A stretch of 64,000 nucleotides of DNA from Planctomycetota bacterium (GCA_019456145.1 VRUL01000005.1:124001-188000), one strand, 5' to 3'; shown: positions 47,535-63,870, counted from the stretch's first letter. A program made the numbers and translations. The notes: generated by a model not told the origin, from the sequence alone.

Positions 47535-48403
47535 TTTCTATGCCTGCATTCGCTGTCAATGAGCTCTTCGAAGCTCTTTTGCAACTTTTTAGTCATCGCC
47601 CCGACCTTGCCGTTGCCTACCGTGTGCTTCTCTATCCTGCTTATCGGCATAATCTGCATAATTACATTCGTCAGAAAGGCCTCGTCGGCGGCTAAACAAT
47701 CGTCTATATAGAGGTTTTTTTCAACCAATTTAATGGAATCTTTTAGCGCGATCTGGCAGACAGTCTTTCTCGCCACCCCTGCAAGTACCGGCGTTTCAAT
47801 CGGCGGAGTGTAGAGAACCGAATCTTTGACCAGGAACACATTACTAATGCAGCCTTCAGCCAGGCGATTATCCACAGTAAACCATATCGCCTCGGCCGCT
47901 CTTCTGTCGTGCGCCAATTTTAGTGCTATCATACGTGAGAAATAGCTTGTCGTCTTGTGCCCACAAGTCGGCTCGGCGGGATTTTGCCTAAATGGGCACA
48001 ACACGACCATGACGCCATTTTTATAATATTCGGCTGGATATGGCACTAATTTCGTGGCGGTGACAAGAAGTGTTGGATGGCGTTCTTCTTCCGATTCGGA
48101 CATCGGTCCGCCGGTCAATGTCAGACGCAGGCGGGCGTCAGTTAGTTTATTTGCCTTGAGGACTTTGTATATGGCTTCAGCGATATATTTTCGATGAGGG
48201 GGCTTTATCGAAAAGGCGTTGGCGCTGAAAAAGAGTCTATCCAGATGGTCTTTAAGCGCGAAGACCACGCCGTTATAACTTCGCATCGTCTCGAAGAGAC
48301 CGGCCCCGTACAAAAGACCGCTATCGGTAACCGATATACCGGCCTTGTCGATATCGACCAACTTATCATTTAGGAAAACCTTTTCCGTCTTTTTTATTTT
48401 CAT
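47531..48403 (-). CDS. pabC: class IV aminotransferase, probable aminodeoxychorismate lyase
   Basis: 290 aa, PLP fold type IV. DSGLLYGAGLFETMR at the N-terminus and the PLP lysine in HKTTSYFSRM (about residue 158), with EGCISNVFLV binding the cofactor phosphate. Could be a branched-chain or D-amino-acid aminotransferase, but pabB lies two genes upstream, so 4-amino-4-deoxychorismate lyase (p-aminobenzoate for folate) is the best reading. Confidence 0.8.
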   Translation of the reverse strand: MKIKKTEKVFLNDKLVDIDKAGISVTDSGLLYGAGLFETMRSYNGVVFALKDHLDRLFFSANAFSIKPPHRKYIAEAIYKVLKANKLTDARLRLTLTGGPMSESEEERHPTLLVTATKLVPYPAEYYKNGVMVVLCPFRQNPAEPTCGHKTTSYFSRMIALKLAHDRRAAEAIWFTVDNRLAEGCISNVFLVKDSVLYTPPIETPVLAGVARKTVCQIALKDSIKLVEKNLYIDDCLAADEAFLTNVIMQIMPISRIEKHTVGNGKVGAMTKKLQKSFEELIDSECRHRK

Positions 48404-48492
48404 AAATCTTTAACTTAAGCTTAGCAAATCGCGCTGGCCTTATGAATTTCATTTGTTAGTGGATACCACAAATATTTAGTTTTATAAATCAA

Positions 48493-49257
48493 CTAATCAA
48501 TCCCATACTTGGGATTGTAACGGCCCCATCCTCCTATGTAGATAATAACGTTTTCAGATTCAGCCAAATCAATGCATAGGGTATTTATTTGGAGACTACC
48601 GTCCTTGCTGTTCATATGACCAGAGAAATTTTTTCCCTTCCTTATCTTAGCTTTGAACCATTCTGGCCAACCCCAATAAGGTTCTATCCTTGGTTCATAT
48701 TTGTTAGGATCATAATCCGTAAAATCATACACATCGTGCACATGACGAGTACCATTGGGATAACCGTAAATTGTATCTTGGTCCTTTATTTTTGGAAACG
48801 ATGTGTGGAACTGCTCCCAACCTTTTTCGTCAGTCGAGAAATTGAGTATGAAACGGTAGGTGTCGTCGAGCCAGGTAGTTCTTGTTTCCGCTGCTTTGGC
48901 GGAGCTGATGTTGTCGGGAAGATTAAAATCAAAGCTGTTTTCTATTAAAGCGATAACTTTATTTGGATTGCACTCACTAAATGGTCTTGGTTTGGGAAAA
49001 CCGAAACCAGATATGCTAATTATTAGTATCACGAGAATCATTATGATGATAAACGACGTTGCTGCTACTATTCCAAGGATTGCTGCTGTTTGTCCTGTTA
49101 ATTGACCTTTGCTTTTTTTTATTCGGGTTATTGCCAGAATTCCCAAAACAAGGCCTATCGGGGCAAATGGAGGAATTCCACCAAATATAATTGAAGCTAT
49201 CGCCAACTTAGATATTTTCTTTTTTTTATCTTCTGTTTTTATTTCTGTTTCGGTCAT
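48493..49257 (-). CDS. DUF4190-type membrane protein
   Basis: 254 aa. Lys-rich N-terminus, then two hydrophobic helices (about 18-45 and 55-85) with the DUF4190 pattern KLAIASIIFGG...GLVLGILAI...GQTAAILGIV. The rest (about 95-254) is a soluble, probably external domain I do not recognise. It overlaps pabB by four bases, sitting between pabB and pabC, but nothing links it to folate synthesis. Confidence 0.75.
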   Translation of the reverse strand: MTETEIKTEDKKKKISKLAIASIIFGGIPPFAPIGLVLGILAITRIKKSKGQLTGQTAAILGIVAATSFIIIMILVILIISISGFGFPKPRPFSECNPNKVIALIENSFDFNLPDNISSAKAAETRTTWLDDTYRFILNFSTDEKGWEQFHTSFPKIKDQDTIYGYPNGTRHVHDVYDFTDYDPNKYEPRIEPYWGWPEWFKAKIRKGKNFSGHMNSKDGSLQINTLCIDLAESENVIIYIGGWGRYNPKYGID

Positions 49258-50780
49258 GCTTTCTCCTCTTCATTGTTTTGCACTGCTTTTATTCCAGCCA
49301 GTAGTGCTCTTGCTTTTGTGGTAGTTTCGTCCCATTCGGCTTGCGGATCGGAGTCAGCGACGATACCACCGCCGGTTTGAGCAAAGGCCGTCTGTCCCTT
49401 GATAATAATCGTTCGTATAGCAATATTCAGGGAGACGCTGCCGTCGAGCCCGATGTATCCGATGCTGCCGGTATACACACCTCTTGCTGTTGGTTCGGTC
49501 TCGTCGATAATCTCCATTGAGCGGATTTTTGGGGCGCCGGTAATCGAACCGCCGGGGAACATTGCCTCTAAAATATCGCAGAATGTAATATCCTTGCGAA
49601 GTCTTCCGGCGACGGTAGCCACAGCATGAAAAACAGTCGGATAGTTTTCGATAGTTCTTTGCTGGACGACCTTTCTGGTCCCGGGTTCGCAGATTCTGGC
49701 GATGTCGTTGCGCTCCAGGTCGACTATCATATTAAGCTCGGCCTGCTCTTTTTCGCTCTGGATCAGCTCATCGAAATTTTTTGCGTTGATTTTCTTACCT
49801 CGACCGGTTTCACTGACCCGCGGCCGGGTGCCTTTAATCGGCTTGGTGCTGATAATGCCGTCCTCGGTTGTTATAAACATCTCAGGCGAAGCGCTTACTA
49901 TGTGGAAGTTGCCGGCGTCGATATAGGCGGCATAGGGGCTTGTATTGTAATGGTTTTGCCAGTGGAAAAGGTCTATCGGGCAGGCTTGATAGTCACATTC
50001 AAATCGCTGTGAAAAGTTGATTTGGTAGACATCGCCATCATAGATATAGCGTTTTATTTTCTCGATTGCCTCCAGATAATAGCTTTTATCCATATTGCAT
50101 CGAATTTGCGAGAAATCTATATTTTCAATATCAGCAGGCGGAGGCGATGGAATGTGTAGTTTCTCAGAGTCGGTCAGTAATTTTTCCAGAGAAGCTAATT
50201 TTTCCTGCGGCTTTTTAGTATCGTTCGGCATCTGTAAGGCGATTAGCCAGAAAGTTTCTTCGAGATGGTCATAAGCGATAAAGCGGTCGTAGAAGCACAG
50301 TCGAATCAGCGGCATTTGGAAGTCATCTATTGTGGTCTCCGGCAGCTTCTCAATATATCGGCCGAGTTCGTAGCTAAAATACCCCATCCATCCGCCACGA
50401 AAAATCCCTCGTAGGGGCAACCCTGTGTGGTTGCCCTGGCAGTCTCTTTCAAGTTTGTATTTTTCCAGAGCTTTTTGCAGTTTTGCGAAAGGGTCATTTT
50501 GTCCGGCCCGGAATTCAAATACTTCTTTCGGTCGAGCCGCCCAGTAGCTGAATCTATCCGCATCTTTCTTGGCGCTATTACCGCCGATAATTGACGGGTA
50601 TTTTAGCCCGGCGAATACTTCATTTAGAGCCGGAAGATTTATCGAAGAGTGGAATTTTTTATAGTGCAATCTGCAAAGAATACATTTGTCCGCCGCAGCA
50701 ACTGTTTTTAATGCTACAGTCCTGTTAGACTTTGCAAGTTCAGTAAAGCGCTCTCTCTTTGAATTTTGTATTTTTGTCAT
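49254..50780 (-). CDS. pabB: aminodeoxychorismate synthase component I
   Basis: About 508 aa from ATG 50780 (GTG 50798 also possible). Chorismate-binding enzyme making 4-amino-4-deoxychorismate for folate. The nucleophilic Lys of PabB is in STKPIKGTRPR (anthranilate synthases have PIAGT). Other motifs: ELNMIVDLERNDIARIC, FPGGSITGAPKIRSMEII, YTGSIGYIG and QTGGGIVADSDP. Residues about 118-130 (CQGNHTGLPLRG) are encoded by a palindromic repeat inserted in frame just before the conserved FRGGWMGYFSYELG. No separate pabA is in the window. Confidence 0.92.
   Translation of the reverse strand: MTKIQNSKRERFTELAKSNRTVALKTVAAADKCILCRLHYKKFHSSINLPALNEVFAGLKYPSIIGGNSAKKDADRFSYWAARPKEVFEFRAGQNDPFAKLQKALEKYKLERDCQGNHTGLPLRGIFRGGWMGYFSYELGRYIEKLPETTIDDFQMPLIRLCFYDRFIAYDHLEETFWLIALQMPNDTKKPQEKLASLEKLLTDSEKLHIPSPPPADIENIDFSQIRCNMDKSYYLEAIEKIKRYIYDGDVYQINFSQRFECDYQACPIDLFHWQNHYNTSPYAAYIDAGNFHIVSASPEMFITTEDGIISTKPIKGTRPRVSETGRGKKINAKNFDELIQSEKEQAELNMIVDLERNDIARICEPGTRKVVQQRTIENYPTVFHAVATVAGRLRKDITFCDILEAMFPGGSITGAPKIRSMEIIDETEPTARGVYTGSIGYIGLDGSVSLNIAIRTIIIKGQTAFAQTGGGIVADSDPQAEWDETTTKARALLAGIKAVQNNEEEKA
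50413..50437. repeat. REP-like palindrome inside pabB
   Basis: AGGGGCAACC (50413-50422), loop CTGTGT, GGTTGCCCT (50429-50437): nine pairs. The form GTAGGGGC-x-ACC...GGT-x-GCCC is a common dispersed bacterial palindrome. It is read through in frame by pabB. Confidence 0.7.
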
Positions 50781-54467: not shown

Positions 54468-54923
54468 AACTTACAGTTCTCCAGATACCTGCAATCCAGG
54501 ATTCTAACAGGCTTTACGATATATTACAATAGAAATTTCTTAAAGTTCAAACTTTTTTTAATCGGCGAATAATATCACGTTTTATTGGACGATGACAATA
54601 TGGCCCACCATTATTTATGAGTTTATCCTGAGCTTGGGAGTATACCATGAGCAAGCCCGAAGGGAAGGAATAGTCGCTAATATTCATCCATTTTCGGCCG
54701 GGAAGGCCGGCATAGCCGGCATTTTTCTGATATTGACGGATTGGAGAAATTGGAGGATTTTGGGTGCCTCGCCAGTACACTTTGGTCTGGATTCTTTGCA
54801 GAAACTTAGTGCGAGAGAGTTGTCGTTAAAAAATAAGTTTTTATTTGACGTAAATTGCGCTTTTGTGTATTTTTACGGCCAACAGAGATGTTAGCGGTGC
54901 AGAAATTTTATACTTTTGATCGC
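54468..54923. other. boundary between housekeeping run and methyltransferase cassette
   Basis: 456 bp without a convincing gene. It holds the rpmE promoter side (minus) and must hold the promoter of the plus-strand cassette. A hairpin GCCGGC-ATA-GCCGGC (54706-54720) followed by ATTTTT looks like a plus-strand terminator, although no plus gene precedes it; it may shield the cassette or end an unseen small transcript. Short open frames here look like chance. Confidence 0.5.
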
Positions 54924-56273
54924 ATGAACAGTACAATAAATTTAATTTCGTTGTTCTCAGGTGCACTCGGCTTGGATCTGGGCTTGGAACAAGCTGGATT
55001 TGTCCTTAAAGCCGCAGTTGAATGCAATCAATTTGCAATCCAAACAATAAAAGATAATAAGGATAACTTAAAAAATAAAAAACCCATAATAATTGACAGG
55101 CCCATGTCTTTGAAAAATATCACAGAAATATGTGATGAGATTTTAAAAAAAACAACACTCAAAAAAAGTGGGTGTTATGTTTTGGCCGGAGCACCACCAT
55201 GTCAACCATTTAGCACAGCAGGTAAACGGGCCTCCTTAAAGGACAGTCGCAGCTGCGGATTTCGAATCTTCTTTAAGGCGATAAGAATTCTTAAGCCAAA
55301 GTTTTTTGTAATCGAAAATGTTAAGGGGATATTGTCTGCAGCAAAAAAACATAGGCCACTGGCCGAACGGGGACCGGGTTTTCCTCAATTAACACCTGAT
55401 GAAGAACATGGTTCCGCATTTATAGAGTTGCTTGATGATATAGAAAAGCTATGTAAAGATATTGGATATTGCTGTAGTTGGGGACTAATTAATTCTGCCG
55501 ACTACGGCGCTCCTCAGGTACGCGAGCGAGTGATTTTTATAGGTTCGCTGGATGGCCATTTTATATGGCCAGGACCCACACACTCCAAAGGTGGGAACAA
55601 TGGGACGAAGAAATGGGTCACTTTAAGAAAAGCGCTTAAAGGTATCAATGACCCCGAGCCTGTATACAACAAGTTTAACAAGCGGGTTTCTAATTATCTG
55701 GAGCTAATACCAGAAGGCTCAAACTGGCGTGCCCTGCCCAACAATCTTCAACGTAAGGCAATAGGTGCTGCTTTCAAATCGTGGGGCGGACGTTCAGGGT
55801 TCTTACGCCGTCTTTCATGGGAAAAATCCGCTCCTACAATTACAAACAATCCAAAAACAAAAGCAACAATGTTGTGTCACCCTACAGAGATTAGGCCTCT
55901 TAGCGTACGAGAGTGTGCAAGATTACAGCAATTTCCTGATAAGTGGAATTTTTTTGGAAGTGTAGCGGCCCAATACAAGCAGGTGGGAAACGCGACCCCA
56001 CTTTCAATTGGTGAGGCGATTGGCCACGCCATTGCCAAAGCAGCAAGAAAAAAGAACAAAGGTCGGCACGCGAAGAAGCTTTACTGTGCAGATCCTATGT
56101 TACTCCGTCGAATTATTCAAAGGCCCAAGACAATGCTAAATCCTGTAAAAATGCGGAAAATCAAAAGCATAGAAAAAGCAAAGTCCTGGCTGAACAATGG
56201 AGAAAACAAAAGAAAAGGTTTTGAAAAATATGAGTCAATAAGCCCAAAAGAAGCAGCGTTGGTATTCAAATAA
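54924..56273 (+). CDS. dcm: C5-cytosine DNA methyltransferase
   Basis: About 449 aa from ATG 54924 (MNSTINLISLFSGALG); upstream in-frame ATGs at 54855 and 54888 add non-homologous residues. Motif I FSGALGLDLGLEQAG (SAM), IV GAPPCQPFS with the catalytic Cys, VI FVIENVKG, VIII QVRERV, X QVGNATPLSIGEAI. The target-recognition region between VIII and IX is short. A basic tail of about 60 residues follows motif X. Methylates cytosine C5 in an unknown site. First gene of a same-strand cassette, more AT-rich and Lys-rich than its neighbours, which suggests recent transfer. Confidence 0.93.
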   Translation: MNSTINLISLFSGALGLDLGLEQAGFVLKAAVECNQFAIQTIKDNKDNLKNKKPIIIDRPMSLKNITEICDEILKKTTLKKSGCYVLAGAPPCQPFSTAGKRASLKDSRSCGFRIFFKAIRILKPKFFVIENVKGILSAAKKHRPLAERGPGFPQLTPDEEHGSAFIELLDDIEKLCKDIGYCCSWGLINSADYGAPQVRERVIFIGSLDGHFIWPGPTHSKGGNNGTKKWVTLRKALKGINDPEPVYNKFNKRVSNYLELIPEGSNWRALPNNLQRKAIGAAFKSWGGRSGFLRRLSWEKSAPTITNNPKTKATMLCHPTEIRPLSVRECARLQQFPDKWNFFGSVAAQYKQVGNATPLSIGEAIGHAIAKAARKKNKGRHAKKLYCADPMLLRRIIQRPKTMLNPVKMRKIKSIEKAKSWLNNGENKRKGFEKYESISPKEAALVFK

Positions 56274-56296
56274 TTCTAAGGGCCACCAATTGCTAA

Positions 56297-56755
56297 ATGG
56301 AAAGGAAGCTTAGAAAAACTCTCAAGGGCGGAAAGTTCAAGAATGTTCCGGCTGTACGTTCAAAAACAATGTCGGCCATTAGAGGCAAAAATAACCGGAC
56401 CACCGAGCTTTGCTTCCGAATGGCACTTGTGCGGGCAGGGATAAAAGGATGGGAGACTAATGCCGAAGATTTGGTTGGAAAGCCGGATTTCTTTTTCAGA
56501 AAAAAACACATTGCTGTATTTGTTGATGGATGTTTTTGGCACGGTTGTCCTAAATGTGGCCATTACCCAAAGACACGAAGTTCGTTTTGGAAAACAAAGA
56601 TACTCCGAAACAAAGAACGAGATAAAAAAAATAGGCGGAAACTACGTGGAAAAGGTATAAAAGTCGTAAGCATCTGGGAGCATTCTCTGAAAACGCAAAA
56701 AGGTGTAAAATTGAAGATTAAACAAATTAGAAATTTCTTAACAGAAATTAAATGA
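56297..56755 (+). CDS. vsr: Vsr-type mismatch endonuclease
   Basis: 152 aa. Very-short-patch repair nicking enzyme that corrects T:G mismatches made by deamination of 5-methylcytosine. Catalytic and zinc motifs: RSKTMSAIRGKNNRTTE, LVGKPDFFF (catalytic Asp), AVFVDGCFWHGCPKC and FWKTKILRNKERD. Complete. Starts 23 bases after the methyltransferase stop, the classic dcm-vsr pair. Confidence 0.95.
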   Translation: MERKLRKTLKGGKFKNVPAVRSKTMSAIRGKNNRTTELCFRMALVRAGIKGWETNAEDLVGKPDFFFRKKHIAVFVDGCFWHGCPKCGHYPKTRSSFWKTKILRNKERDKKNRRKLRGKGIKVVSIWEHSLKTQKGVKLKIKQIRNFLTEIK

Positions 56756-56790
56756 CCTTTCACGGCTTTATTTTTCAAAAGGTGTCTATT

Positions 56791-57903
56791 ATGGCAAAGA
56801 AAAGTAATCATAAATGGAAACCACCAAAATGGCTTAAGGATTCTGTTCCTTCTACAGCATGGTTTCATGACAAAGAAGTCGATGTCTATGAAGGAACTAC
56901 AAAAGTCAAGGGTATTCGGTTGTGGAGAGAAAACTATCGTACTATTCTTGACTTAGATCAACTTCAAGAAATTTTAGGAAAGGGAAGTACAAGTGAATTA
57001 ACTGACGACGAGATCATAGAACACGTTCTTCGTGAAGGACAGCATAAAATACCTGATTTAGCGAAATCCATAAAGATGAATGGGGTGCGCGTACCTTTGG
57101 TTCTATCCCATAGTAAAGATTTGTTAGATGGAAACAGGCGTTTTCTGGCTTGCAAACACTTGTTAAGAAAGGAAGATGAAACCGATCCTAAATTCACTAT
57201 AGTGCCCGTCAAATGTGTGGATCCCAAAATATCTGATGAAACAAAACTAAAAATTATTGCAGAAATGAATTTCCTTGACCCACATAAGGAAAAGTGGCCC
57301 CGAGATGTAAGGGCCAAGTTTGCAATCCAGGAATTTAATACAGCACTAAAAAAACTAAAAAATAAAGACAAAGCATATGATTACGTAAATTACTATCTAG
57401 ACGTTAAACCCTCTGTTCTAAAAGGATGGCAATCGGTCTCAAAAATGATTGATGAGTACATTAAATATGTAGGTCGTGAGGAAGATAAAAAAGCGCGTCA
57501 AAAAGCTGAAAGATTTGGGAGGGCGAAATTCCACTTCTTTGAAGAATTTCATAATAAGGCCTTAATCGGTCGAAATGCCATGCAAGATTCTGTTTTGATT
57601 GTACAATCTAAAAAACTCCTTTTCAAGTACATATTAAAACAACAACTTCTCTCAACAACAAGCATCAGAGATTTTGCCTCTATTGTTCGTTATGCACCTG
57701 CAAAAAAGCACCTCGAAAAAGCAAATGGTACTTTTACAACTGCAAAAGCCATGTACGATGACTATGCTGGGCCCAGAAAAGCTTCACAAAAAATTCTACG
57801 ATTTTGCCAATGGCTTGAGAATTTGTCCAGGGCCGAAAAGGAAAGCTTTTCTAAAGTCCTAAAGACTCGATTACACAGAGCAGTTCTAAACTTTAAAAAA
57901 TAA
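56791..57903 (+). CDS. ParB/sulfiredoxin-like nuclease-domain protein of the methyltransferase cassette
   Basis: About 370 aa from ATG 56791, with AAGGTG eight bases upstream; an earlier ATG at 56752 overlaps the vsr stop. ParB-like core at about 80-125: PDLAKSIKMNGVRVPLVL then LLDGNRRFLACKHLL (ParB box-type GxRR). The rest (about 170-370) is Lys/Arg-rich and helical, perhaps DNA-binding. Such cores act as CTPase clamps, nucleases or DNA-modification regulators; which applies here is unknown. Neighbouring dcm and vsr suggest a restriction or control role. Not recognised as a named family. Confidence 0.72.
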   Translation: MAKKSNHKWKPPKWLKDSVPSTAWFHDKEVDVYEGTTKVKGIRLWRENYRTILDLDQLQEILGKGSTSELTDDEIIEHVLREGQHKIPDLAKSIKMNGVRVPLVLSHSKDLLDGNRRFLACKHLLRKEDETDPKFTIVPVKCVDPKISDETKLKIIAEMNFLDPHKEKWPRDVRAKFAIQEFNTALKKLKNKDKAYDYVNYYLDVKPSVLKGWQSVSKMIDEYIKYVGREEDKKARQKAERFGRAKFHFFEEFHNKALIGRNAMQDSVLIVQSKKLLFKYILKQQLLSTTSIRDFASIVRYAPAKKHLEKANGTFTTAKAMYDDYAGPRKASQKILRFCQWLENLSRAEKESFSKVLKTRLHRAVLNFKK

Positions 57904-57917
57904 GGAAGCCGGTTCCA

Positions 57918-59111
57918 ATGCCTACAATACACATAGTTGGTGCAGATTACTCTTTTACTCATGATGCGACAAAACAGAGGTATGGCATTGTTGACGACGG
58001 GCAATATACCTTCATAGATCGTGAACATCCTAAGTTGGTTTCTGACTTACTTGATAAAAATATTCCTTCTGCGCATTCGGCTGTTGTTCCGCTATGGAAT
58101 TCCAATACTGGCACAGTAGACTTCGACAGGCAAACGAAAACCGCAGACCTGTTTTTGAAAGCAAGACCAGTTCATGATTTATGGCCTCAACAAATTATTT
58201 TCAAGCTGGCAATAAAAAATGAACATTTAACTGATGATAGCAATATTTTTTCAGTAAAGGTCGCAATGTCGCAGTGTTCTCTTTTCTTAAAACAAATTAA
58301 CATTTTGGACTCGGATCGTTTTATGGGACATCTTTCTACAACAGACGCTGCCGACTCTTTTATTGAGAACGCACAATTAAATGATGGTTTGCTATGTAGT
58401 GAAGCCCTTTTGAATTTTAAGGATTTGAAATCATCTGATATTAACGTAACCAATCCATATAATTTCACAATATTTTCTACTTTTAACACTATCCTTTCGG
58501 ATTCTCCAAATGAACACCCGATATCATTAGGTTGTATTCTCGTCAATTTAACCGGTAATGAGTTACCAACAGAATTTATAGGGTATTATAAAAATCTACT
58601 CACTATGGAAGAAATACAAGAATCTCAAGACGTGTCGCTCAAAACGCCCAAAATCTTATTCATTTGGCGTTATGAAAGCTCAAAGGCGCTGTTGCTACTT
58701 GAGATGGATGCAGGGGGCTACACAGAAAATCCTTGGCCCCTCCCTGATATCGACTCAGAAGAATCTGAATCACAAGAATGGGATTTTTGTGACCAAGTTG
58801 GAAGAATACGTGAACCGTTCTCAGGAAATATTGCACACCTTTTTACAAATAGGTTCCGTGTTCATAAGGATTGTATATTTTATGGGTATGGGGATTGCTA
58901 TACGTGGGCATGTCCCGCGTTAAATATCTCAGTACAAGGCTTCGATAAGGATCTTGTTAAGACGTGCGCAAAGATCCAAGTGTTGCATTTGAAAGACCTC
59001 GTAGATGCAGGAAATGATGTTCCTGCGCCTACTAAACACATGCTGAAACTTCTTCAACAAGATGAGGCAAATTTAAAGTTGGCCCCAGATTCTGAGCCCG
59101 ATGCTCCCTAA
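57918..59111 (+). CDS. prephenate-dehydratase-like ligand-binding protein of the methyltransferase cassette
   Basis: 397 aa; GGAAG lies upstream of the ATG. Four landmarks match prephenate dehydratase (PDT): IHIVGADYSFTHDATKQRYG (start; PDT FLGPxGTFTHxAA), SAVVPLWNSNTGTV (54-67; PDT VPIENSxxGxV), CSLFLKQ...STTDAADSF...LLCSEALLNF (120-167), and NPYNFTIFSTF (179-189; PDT NxTRFxVL). The Arg of the catalytic TRF is Ile and the Glu of IEN is Trp, so dehydratase activity is unlikely. Residues about 200-265 could be ACT-like; 270-397 are unrecognised and end in an acidic tail. Probably a sensor or binding partner in the dcm-vsr-ParB-like cassette, but the sequence does not exclude a nuclease function in the C-terminal part. 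Confidence 0.7.
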   Translation: MPTIHIVGADYSFTHDATKQRYGIVDDGQYTFIDREHPKLVSDLLDKNIPSAHSAVVPLWNSNTGTVDFDRQTKTADLFLKARPVHDLWPQQIIFKLAIKNEHLTDDSNIFSVKVAMSQCSLFLKQINILDSDRFMGHLSTTDAADSFIENAQLNDGLLCSEALLNFKDLKSSDINVTNPYNFTIFSTFNTILSDSPNEHPISLGCILVNLTGNELPTEFIGYYKNLLTMEEIQESQDVSLKTPKILFIWRYESSKALLLLEMDAGGYTENPWPLPDIDSEESESQEWDFCDQVGRIREPFSGNIAHLFTNRFRVHKDCIFYGYGDCYTWACPALNISVQGFDKDLVKTCAKIQVLHLKDLVDAGNDVPAPTKHMLKLLQQDEANLKLAPDSEPDAP

Positions 59112-59149
59112 ATATGGTCAAAGCCAAAAAAAGCACTATTTTTTATTAA

Positions 59150-59660
59150 AAAAGTTCGATTTATATTGAACATTCCGGTGGAGTTTGGTATAATTAAAAC
59201 AGGTAGACATGTTTAGTCCATAGTTGTTGGTTCGTAGTTTTTAGCCATAAGTCTTCTCTGTGAGTTCTGTGAGCTTTGTGGCTTGATTATTCGTACCGAA
59301 AGCGGAGAACCGCAAGTCTTAGTATCAGCAGATACACCCCAAAAACCATCATTTAGCAAAGGTGAATGCTCAATGAACAATAATCATTTATCAATAATCA
59401 GTAATCAATTGCCTATGGCACCCTTTTCCCCTCCTTACTCCATACTTCTTATTCCTTACTCCTTATTTTTACGTGCTTTCGGCATCTTTACAACTGTAGA
59501 GAGATCTTTACAAATCAGCCCCTTTTTTATGCAAAACGAACCCAATTTCCAAAAAAGTCAAATGAATGTAACCTCTATAATGACAGTGGATTATGTAAAT
59601 AAGACACTTAGTGAACACGGGAAAAACGAACCCAAAACTAACCCAATCTATCGCGGCGTA
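59150..59660 (+). repeat. dispersed element, copy A (inverted partner at 63030-63870)
   Basis: Shares with the minus strand of 63870-63030, in the same order: a promoter-like block (59161-59195), AGCGGAGAACCGCAAGTC extended over about 31 bases (59299-59330, containing the hairpin GCGG-AGAA-CCGC), a CAATAATCA-rich part, GCTTTCGGCATCTTTACA, and a coding-like stretch from 59529 reading MQNEPNF-x-KSQMNV...NEPKTNP. Between 59661 and 59918 I see only an in-frame continuation without homology. No transposase is present. Confidence 0.8.
59166..59194 (+). promoter_or_regulatory. sigma70-like promoter at edge of repeat copy A
   Basis: TTGAAC (59166-59171), 17-base spacer, TATAAT (59189-59194). The same block, with identical boxes and spacing, begins copy B on the other strand. 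It points into the repeat and toward the isomerase gene at 59919. Confidence 0.7.
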
Positions 59661-59918
59661 GCCTCTGGCGAAGACGGATCAAACCCAATTTCCCATCAAC
59701 GAACTACGAACAATGAACAACGAACTAATAACAATCAAACCCAATCCTCCCGCCCCCGTTTTTACCCCAAAAACCAAAATTCCCGGCCTATAAAATACTA
59801 CAATTTTCAAGAAAAATTGAACTTTCGGTTCTTTTTAATCGATAATAGCTGTTATGGCATAGATTTTAACAGCAGGTTGGCCGGAAGCGGATGCTCCCGG
59901 CAGGCCTATGGAGATGGA

Positions 59919-63029: not shown

Positions 63030-63870
63030 GCTTTGATTGGGTTCGTTTTCACAAATTGCCCAATTTGACATTTTTTCATAATCCTTTGTTAATTCTTTAT
63101 TTACGTTCATTCGAGCATTTATCAAATTGGCTTTGATTGGGTTCGTTTTGGGTTCGTTTTTCCCGTGTTGACCAAGTGTCTTATTTACATAATCGGTTGT
63201 TGATACTTTAGTTACGTTCATTTGACTTTTTCGGAAATTGGGTTCGTTTTGCATAATTAAGGAGCAGATTTGTCGAGGATTCTTTACAAGTGTAAAGATG
63301 CCGAAGGCATGTAAATAGTTTATTAATCGCGGATTATGCAGATTTCGCGGATTTTTTAGCCACAAAAAGGCACGAAAAATTAACCACAGATTGCACAGAT
63401 TTTTTGCCACAGAGGTCACAGAGGTTATTGGCCGGCTTGGTGTTCTCGGCATACTCTGCTCTAAAAGCGAGCTTTTGACGCAGAGACCTGCCTTCGTCCA
63501 CAAGGCCATCAAAATGGCCTTTTTCAAAAGCCAGCTAAATAGGTGTTTTTTATCCATGTAATACACCTTTTTGATTGATTATTTACGATTTTCTATTGAT
63601 TATTGAGTATTTACAGACGATTAATTTTACAAAATGGCTCCCTGCCTAAAGCATGCTGGGATTCGTGCAAGCTACTGGTTCCCTGCCTACTGCATGCAGG
63701 GACTCGCTGCTGATACTAAGACTTGCGGTTCTCCGCTTTAAATCCAACATGGATTCAGACTATAGACTCAAGACTACAGACTGAAGACTTCTGATTGCTC
63801 AATTTTACATTCTCAATTCTATATTTTCGTTTATATTATACCAAACTTGCCCGGAATGTTCAATAAAAAC
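63030..63870 (-). repeat. dispersed element, copy B (inverted partner of 59150-59660)
   Basis: Read on the minus strand from 63870: promoter block, the 31-base AGCGGAGAACCGCAAGTC... unit (63708-63740), two imperfect CCCTGC...GCAGGG palindromes (63640-63705), a CACAGAGGT/CACAGATT-rich stretch (63350-63430), CCTTCGGCATCTTTACA, and the coding-like segment from 63254 reading MQNEPNF-x-KSQMNV...NEPKTNP. The word TTGGGTTCGTTTT recurs four times between 63045 and 63260. It is longer and more mosaic than copy A. Confidence 0.78.
63835..63863 (-). promoter_or_regulatory. sigma70-like promoter at edge of repeat copy B
   Basis: Minus strand TTGAAC (63863-63858), 17-base spacer, TATAAT (63840-63835). 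Matches the promoter of copy A in both boxes, the spacing and most of the spacer. Directed into the repeat and toward the lipoprotein gene at 62696. Confidence 0.7.

Follow-up and report, generated by a model that had tools for sequence, protein, structure and literature searches.

Dcm-Vsr pairs that lack a restriction enzyme are well known, as in E. coli K-12. Both Vsr and the EndoIII-class glycosylases can handle the T:G mismatch that arises when 5-methylcytosine is deaminated. Type II restriction-modification systems with a Dcm-type methyltransferase likewise carry, adjacent to their C5 methyltransferase, a Vsr that repairs deaminated 5-methylcytosine. The locus described here has this pairing in common with them, but a cognate restriction endonuclease is missing from the window, the whole 64,000-nucleotide stretch of Planctomycetota DNA that we analyzed, and a ParB-fold protein and a prephenate dehydratase (PDT)-fold protein are found instead.

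The restriction neighborhoods of MORC and paraMORC proteins bring together an SF2/SNF2 helicase, Vsr, C5 methylase, and endonucleases (Iyer et al. 2008, PMC2292703), a combination that returns in one sister architecture of the present system, termed B below. MORC systems are built on a GHKL ATPase, whereas here a ParB-like protein is the constant partner and the window cassette lacks a helicase. Members of the ParB/Srx superfamily are themselves known from defense, in DndB, DpdB, and the ParB-HNH protein GmrSD (PMC10853773, PMC12839542), and in these systems, as here, a ParB-type core lies beside DNA-modification or restriction genes. The ParB-like protein of our locus, P0002, nevertheless belongs to a separate family, with a helical C-terminal half of its own and no HNH fusion, and no cassette protein matched phosphorothioation or deazaguanine genes in PADLOC. 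Neither of the two papers mentions prephenate dehydratase. With respect to DISARM, only the methyltransferase resembles a component, DrmMII; none of the remaining cassette proteins matches a Drm family, be it DrmA, DrmB, or DrmC.

The cassette and its genomic setting

Four genes occupy positions 54924-59111 on the plus strand. The first encodes a C5-cytosine DNA methyltransferase of 449 amino acids (54924-56273; PF00145, 8.5e-54), the second a Vsr-type T:G mismatch endonuclease of 152 amino acids (56297-56755; TIGR00632, 1.7e-29), the third the probable ParB/Srx-fold protein P0002 of 370 amino acids (56791-57903), and the fourth the PDT-fold protein P0003 of 397 amino acids (57918-59111). The open reading frames and the family scans agree with the composition read in a preliminary description, as do the short gaps of 35 bases between the Vsr and ParB-like genes and 14 bases between the ParB-like and PDT-like genes. 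At the latter junction (57897-57918, plus strand), the narrow gap together with an AAGGAAG Shine-Dalgarno-like stretch suggests a single transcript. The AT-rich character noted at the outset was borne out, the cassette having a GC content of 0.37-0.42 and a GC3 of 0.31-0.37 against 0.46-0.51 and about 0.50-0.55 in the flanking housekeeping genes. The accompanying claim of lysine richness fits the methyltransferase, Vsr, and P0002 (11.6-17.6% Lys) but not P0003 (5.8%).

Both enzymes of known type are intact. The methyltransferase, in which the motifs APPCQPFS, ENV, QVRER, and QVGN were found, is 77% identical to its counterpart in locus L009 and 61% to that in L012. Vsr scores 102.5 bits with TIGR00632, above the cutoff of 97.85, and aligns to E. 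coli Vsr (1cw0) at 1.4e-14 with PD..F and GCFWH retained.

The cassette segment is a strain-specific insertion, because three genomes of the same genus lack the whole of it. In blastn comparisons with these congeners (L079, L080, and L081), window positions 54563-54605 are joined after 36-95 bp to positions 59792-59804, so that about 5.2 kb (54605-59792, the ends being placed to within some tens of bases) containing just the cassette is missing. The insert holds the four cassette genes only, and no defense island surrounds it; the flanks are core genes common to the congeners, those on the left encoding, by sequence, release factor 1 and ribosomal protein L31. Of the other 40 genomes in the relatives sample, none has a full-length relative of the ParB family. 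The cassette is a small, horizontally acquired unit that was inserted recently. Positions 59420-59650 and 63135-63315 hold copies of an interspersed repeat for which the genome has about 40-50 matches; one copy lies at the insert's right edge and may be linked to insertion. A second short segment, at 48390-49285, also has no counterpart in the three congeners and holds a 254-amino-acid open reading frame (48493-49257) with a hydrophobic N-terminal part.

The ParB-like and PDT-fold proteins

P0002 appears to consist of an N-terminal ParB core with an LLDGNRR box and a helical, HTH-like C-terminal half. ParB profiles match it below threshold (ParB_N, PF02195, 0.012, 16.1 bits against 26.3; TIGR00180, 1.8e-4, 21.3 against 58.45), and its AlphaFold model is confident (pLDDT 89.7). 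The only meaningful Protein Data Bank matches in Foldseek, which also head the list, are pNOB8-like ParB-N structures (5k5a and 5k5d), with a probability of 0.97-1.00, E values of only 0.003-0.04, and TM scores no higher than 0.55. Alignment of the family adds that the residues invariant in 25 members include D113-G114-N115-R116-R117, N160, and W169, the first group being aligned with the GERR box of ParB. In ParB proteins this box binds nucleotide, and P0002 is predicted to bind both NTP and DNA. A ParA partner gene was not found in the insert. PADLOC-DB has no model for P0002, the best hit (8.8e-4) being a match of the ParB core to PD-Lambda-5_A.

For P0003, homology to PDTs is shown for the N-terminal half, because Pfam, the family profile on solved PDTs, the same profile on PheA, and Foldseek all agree. 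Residues 1-190 form a PDT/PBP2-like ligand-binding fold, with a PF00800 match of 1e-10 (42.2 bits against a cutoff of 25.2). A profile built from the P0003 family matches solved PDTs (6vh5, 4.6e-9; 2qmw, 1.5e-8) and also finds genuine PheA-type proteins in 38 genomes. Foldseek returns PDTs and GqqA at E values of 1e-7 to 1e-9, followed by many LysR effector domains. The PDT catalytic-domain fold is common to P0003, prephenate dehydratase (PheA), and the acylase GqqA, with the P..NS, S..QC, and N(F)T motifs in alignment (PMC8192741). Beyond about residue 191, up to residue 397, P0003 has a conserved domain of no recognized fold. These C-terminal ~200 amino acids match nothing in Pfam, solved structures, or partner genes, also by profile-profile comparison with the latter; the AlphaFold model there is of low confidence, and no Pfam ACT domain is matched.

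In all six members of the P0003 family, P..ENS is replaced by P..WNS, S-H..QC by S-V..QC, and N-x-TRF by NFT-x-F (x being I, T, S, or V), while genuine PheA has ENS/EN and N(Y/V)TRF. Because the ENS, SH, and TRF signatures are lost in all six, P0003, as judged from its sequence, is not a prephenate dehydratase. The pocket positions N61, S112, Q119, and T184 are retained in every member. E159 of the E. coli enzyme has been cited as important for substrate binding, and GqqA is a PDT scaffold that acquired a different activity (PMC8192741). Relative to PheA and GqqA, P0003 thus differs in its motifs, in a C terminus of about 200 amino acids without a recognizable ACT domain, and in a genomic context of DNA modification. 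Profile scans matched no nuclease family in either P0002 or P0003, and family scans gave neither protein a close match to a known restriction enzyme family.

Related loci and their exchangeable parts

Relatives of P0002 occur in at least 10 phyla. A search with P0002 gave three distant relatives, whose alignment in turn yielded 26 chromosomal loci in a scan blind to methyltransferases; with the window, the chromosomal set comes to 27 loci, whose open reading frames were clustered. A C5 methyltransferase lies on the fetched stretch in 24 of the 27, usually no more than 2.4 kb away. The remaining three are L014, whose contig is cut and reaches only about 1 kb upstream of ParB, and the cyanobacterial loci L031 and L033. 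The expectation that both unknown genes travel with a methyltransferase, rather than occurring mostly away from one, thus held for the ParB family and, through it, for the PDT family, all six members of which lie directly behind a ParB gene.

Architecture A, methyltransferase-(Vsr)-ParB-PDT, comprises the window, L009, L010, L011, L012, and L013, from Planctomycetota, Verrucomicrobiota, Lentisphaerota, Margulisiibacteriota, and Nitrospirota. The whole four-gene block is also present in L009. The ParB and PDT genes are spaced from an overlap to 14 bp in all six loci, and in L013 the methyltransferase is convergent to them. Because these two genes stay tightly coupled throughout and the methyltransferase can be convergent, ParB-PDT is the core of the system. 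Six loci underlie this linkage, of which two are closely related (54% identical), and the members were found via ParB. Recurrence of the four-gene block, presence of ParB-PDT in five phyla, and absence of the segment from congeners together indicate more than chance. Relatives of P0003 surfaced only through the ParB partner: single-protein searches gave no match in phages, plasmids, viral contigs, or genome contigs, and alignment searches of viral contigs gave none either. Scans of phyla with the PDT profile recovered canonical PheA (E values of 1e-6 to 1e-13) and the members already known, and about 1,050 genomes from four phyla held no PDT-family member outside this context, a weak test given the rarity of members. 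In L010 (L010:8166-9014; G296:C160:22408-23653), from Verrucomicrobia, the methyltransferase of the PDT system lies in two frames, through either a pseudogene or an assembly error.

In architecture B, a sigma-like gene, a ParB gene, and an SNF2 helicase gene are accompanied by a methyltransferase, and eight loci encode a protein of 140-170 amino acids with PDVLR..GEAKxTE, a motif that suggests a PD-(D/E)XK-like nuclease. These loci, within L014-L034 (e.g., L016:6760-13399), present a sigma-70-region-4-like gene, a long ParB-like gene, SNF2, the small PD-(D/E)XK-like protein, and the C5 methyltransferase; isolates such as Herbaspirillum, Nitrospirillum, Aquibium, and Neobacillus also carry them, and the ParB of this architecture had no match on plasmids. 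The system is widespread and apparently uncatalogued. Architecture C (L015 and L032, with L027 cut off after the SNF2 gene) consists of a methyltransferase, an unknown gene, ParB, SNF2, and a protein whose C-terminal SxSIDxA..E(I/L)KS..QVLYY is likewise PD-(D/E)XK-like by motif. The SNF2 helicases of the sister systems (PF00176, 1.8e-23) resemble the defense proteins ZorD and DpdE at 1e-27 to 1e-36. No PADLOC-DB model covers P0003, the sigma-like gene and small nuclease-like protein of architecture B, or the unknowns of architecture C, and a literature search on PDT in defense or on ParB alongside SNF2 and a C5 methylase, which covered few subscription papers, did not find the system. To this extent, there is support for the new architecture beside a methyltransferase that the preliminary description proposed.

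Phylogenetic comparison of the ParB proteins by maximum likelihood places the PDT-associated members and one viral relative in a single clade (99/96), separate from the SNF2-associated proteins, with the architecture C ParBs in another clade (100/99); branches are long and the deeper order is insecure. The viral relative is on an IMG/VR contig (L035:1-1715) that opens in the 3' end of a methyltransferase and continues with a Vsr almost identical to that of the window and the ParB relative; genes for a HerA-like ATPase and for Dam-like and terminase-like proteins adjoin. This contig has no PDT gene, so some settings do without PDT; the ParB-methyltransferase part may work alone, or a phage may have captured it to protect itself.

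Several architecture B methyltransferases are fused to or beside an EndoIII-type HhH-GPD glycosylase of 230 amino acids with a Cys cluster. Fused or adjacent glycosylases accompany the methyltransferase reading frames of L016, L018, L028, and L034, and further glycosylases associated with a C5 methyltransferase lie at L022:8042-8773, L026:7902-8615, L013:4883-5794, and L015:13959-14663, the last being a separate gene in an architecture C locus. Vsr and the EndoIII-like glycosylase therefore look like alternative repair parts. Because sister systems place a glycosylase in its position, Vsr in the window is most likely a T:G-repair accessory of the methyltransferase rather than a restriction enzyme. 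Vsr as the restriction nuclease was considered and set aside as the leading idea in view of these glycosylases of sister methyltransferases.

Whether other nucleases adjoin the cassette varies among loci. In L012, HNH_2 follows PDT directly; in L011, a type IIG Eco57I+HSDR_N enzyme precedes Vsr; and in L013, Mrr_cat adjoins. Vsr is the only nuclease seen in the window cassette and in L009, and L010 shows none. The earlier remark that no ordinary restriction enzyme is visible thus holds for the window cassette but not for some of its relatives, given HNH_2, Mrr, and the PD-(D/E)XK-like proteins of architectures B and C. A second C5 methyltransferase and an adjacent HNH gene (L012:6310-8393) near the PDT cassette suggest that the L012 neighborhood is restriction rich. 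Within about 10 kb of Nitrospirae DNA (L013:371-10460), ParB-PDT-methyltransferase is found with a second ParB-SNF2-nuclease set, a glycosylase, and the Mrr-type nuclease.

Function of the cassette

The ParB-PDT-methyltransferase combination is probably an undescribed restriction-type defense system, because ParB-PDT recurs beside methyltransferases in five phyla. With moderate confidence, we read the cassette as a mobile restriction-type unit directed against invaders, with a PDT-fold component, and we infer its defense role from this context. In favor of this reading are the link to C5 methyltransferases, the common clade of the ParBs from PDT systems, the SNF2 helicases and nuclease-like proteins that hold the same place in sister loci, the restriction-type enzymes near some members, the insertion, and the lack of solo PDT-family members in the genomes scanned. 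Against it count the dearth of nucleases in the window cassette, L009, and L010, the solitary position of the cassette among housekeeping genes, the viral contig that lacks PDT, and the small number of ParB-PDT loci. The methyltransferase would mark self DNA at a specific site, and Vsr would repair the T:G mismatches that deamination of 5-methylcytosine leaves behind. The ParB/Srx-fold and PDT-fold proteins would form an obligate pair acting on DNA without the mark. The ParB-like protein may bind nucleotide via the conserved DGNRR box and Asn160 and DNA through its helical C-terminal half, loading at or patrolling for unmethylated sites. The PDT-fold protein, whose two-lobed ligand-binding fold has an altered pocket and is joined to a novel C-terminal domain, would gate or execute the response. 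Across the family, methyltransferase and ParB are the constant part, and the repair and response parts are exchangeable; PDT would fill the response slot held in the sister systems by the SNF2 translocase and nuclease. PDT may be the sensor or switch, with DNA damage due to the ParB-like protein or a recruited nuclease. A categorically new mechanism, in which a PDT-fold ligand-gated switch or enzyme and a nucleotide-binding ParB attack C5-unmethylated DNA in place of a helicase-nuclease, is a tentative proposal whose chances we put below even.

Other explanations are less probable. One is regulation around an orphan methyltransferase, with a ParB-like DNA-binding regulator and a PDT-fold metabolite sensor tuning methylation or expression and no invader attacked. 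The LysR effector domains following the PDTs in Foldseek, which recall LysR-like use of PBP2, the lack of a visible effector nuclease in the window cassette, and the E. coli K-12 precedent accord with this explanation. Sister ParBs that share operons with SNF2 helicases and nuclease-like proteins, restriction enzymes adjoining relatives, and a patchy distribution and insertion typical of defense argue otherwise, and we consider it unlikely. Loss of the E of ENS, the H of SH, and the R of TRF in six of six members, with no associated receptor or second enzyme seen, similarly weighs on the view that the PDT-like protein is an active enzyme, making or destroying a small molecule once the ParB-like protein detects unmodified DNA and so causing growth arrest rather than cleavage; this is doubtful, even with the four retained pocket residues and the new hydrolase function evolved by GqqA (PMC8192741) in its favor. 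Quite improbable is a chromosome-captured module of phage origin that protected phage DNA or maintained an element through methylation and a partition-like ParB. It would account for the cassette genes beside HerA-like and terminase-like genes on the viral contig, but the viral ParB is nested within the clade of the PDT systems, not outside it, which makes phage capture of a cellular cassette as likely; moreover, the window insert has no ParA, and chromosomal loci dominate. Chance proximity of unrelated genes is scarcely credible, being already contradicted by a gene order that recurs over five phyla with tight coupling and clade-consistent partners.

The locus adds PDT, a fold of amino acid biosynthesis, to the parts known from DNA-modification loci. 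It also reveals a wider and apparently uncatalogued family in which one ParB-type protein and a C5 methyltransferase are combined with exchangeable parts, Vsr or an EndoIII-like glycosylase for repair and PDT or SNF2-nuclease for response. The role of the ParB fold in restriction and the sensing of an infection metabolite by PDT thereby become directly testable questions.
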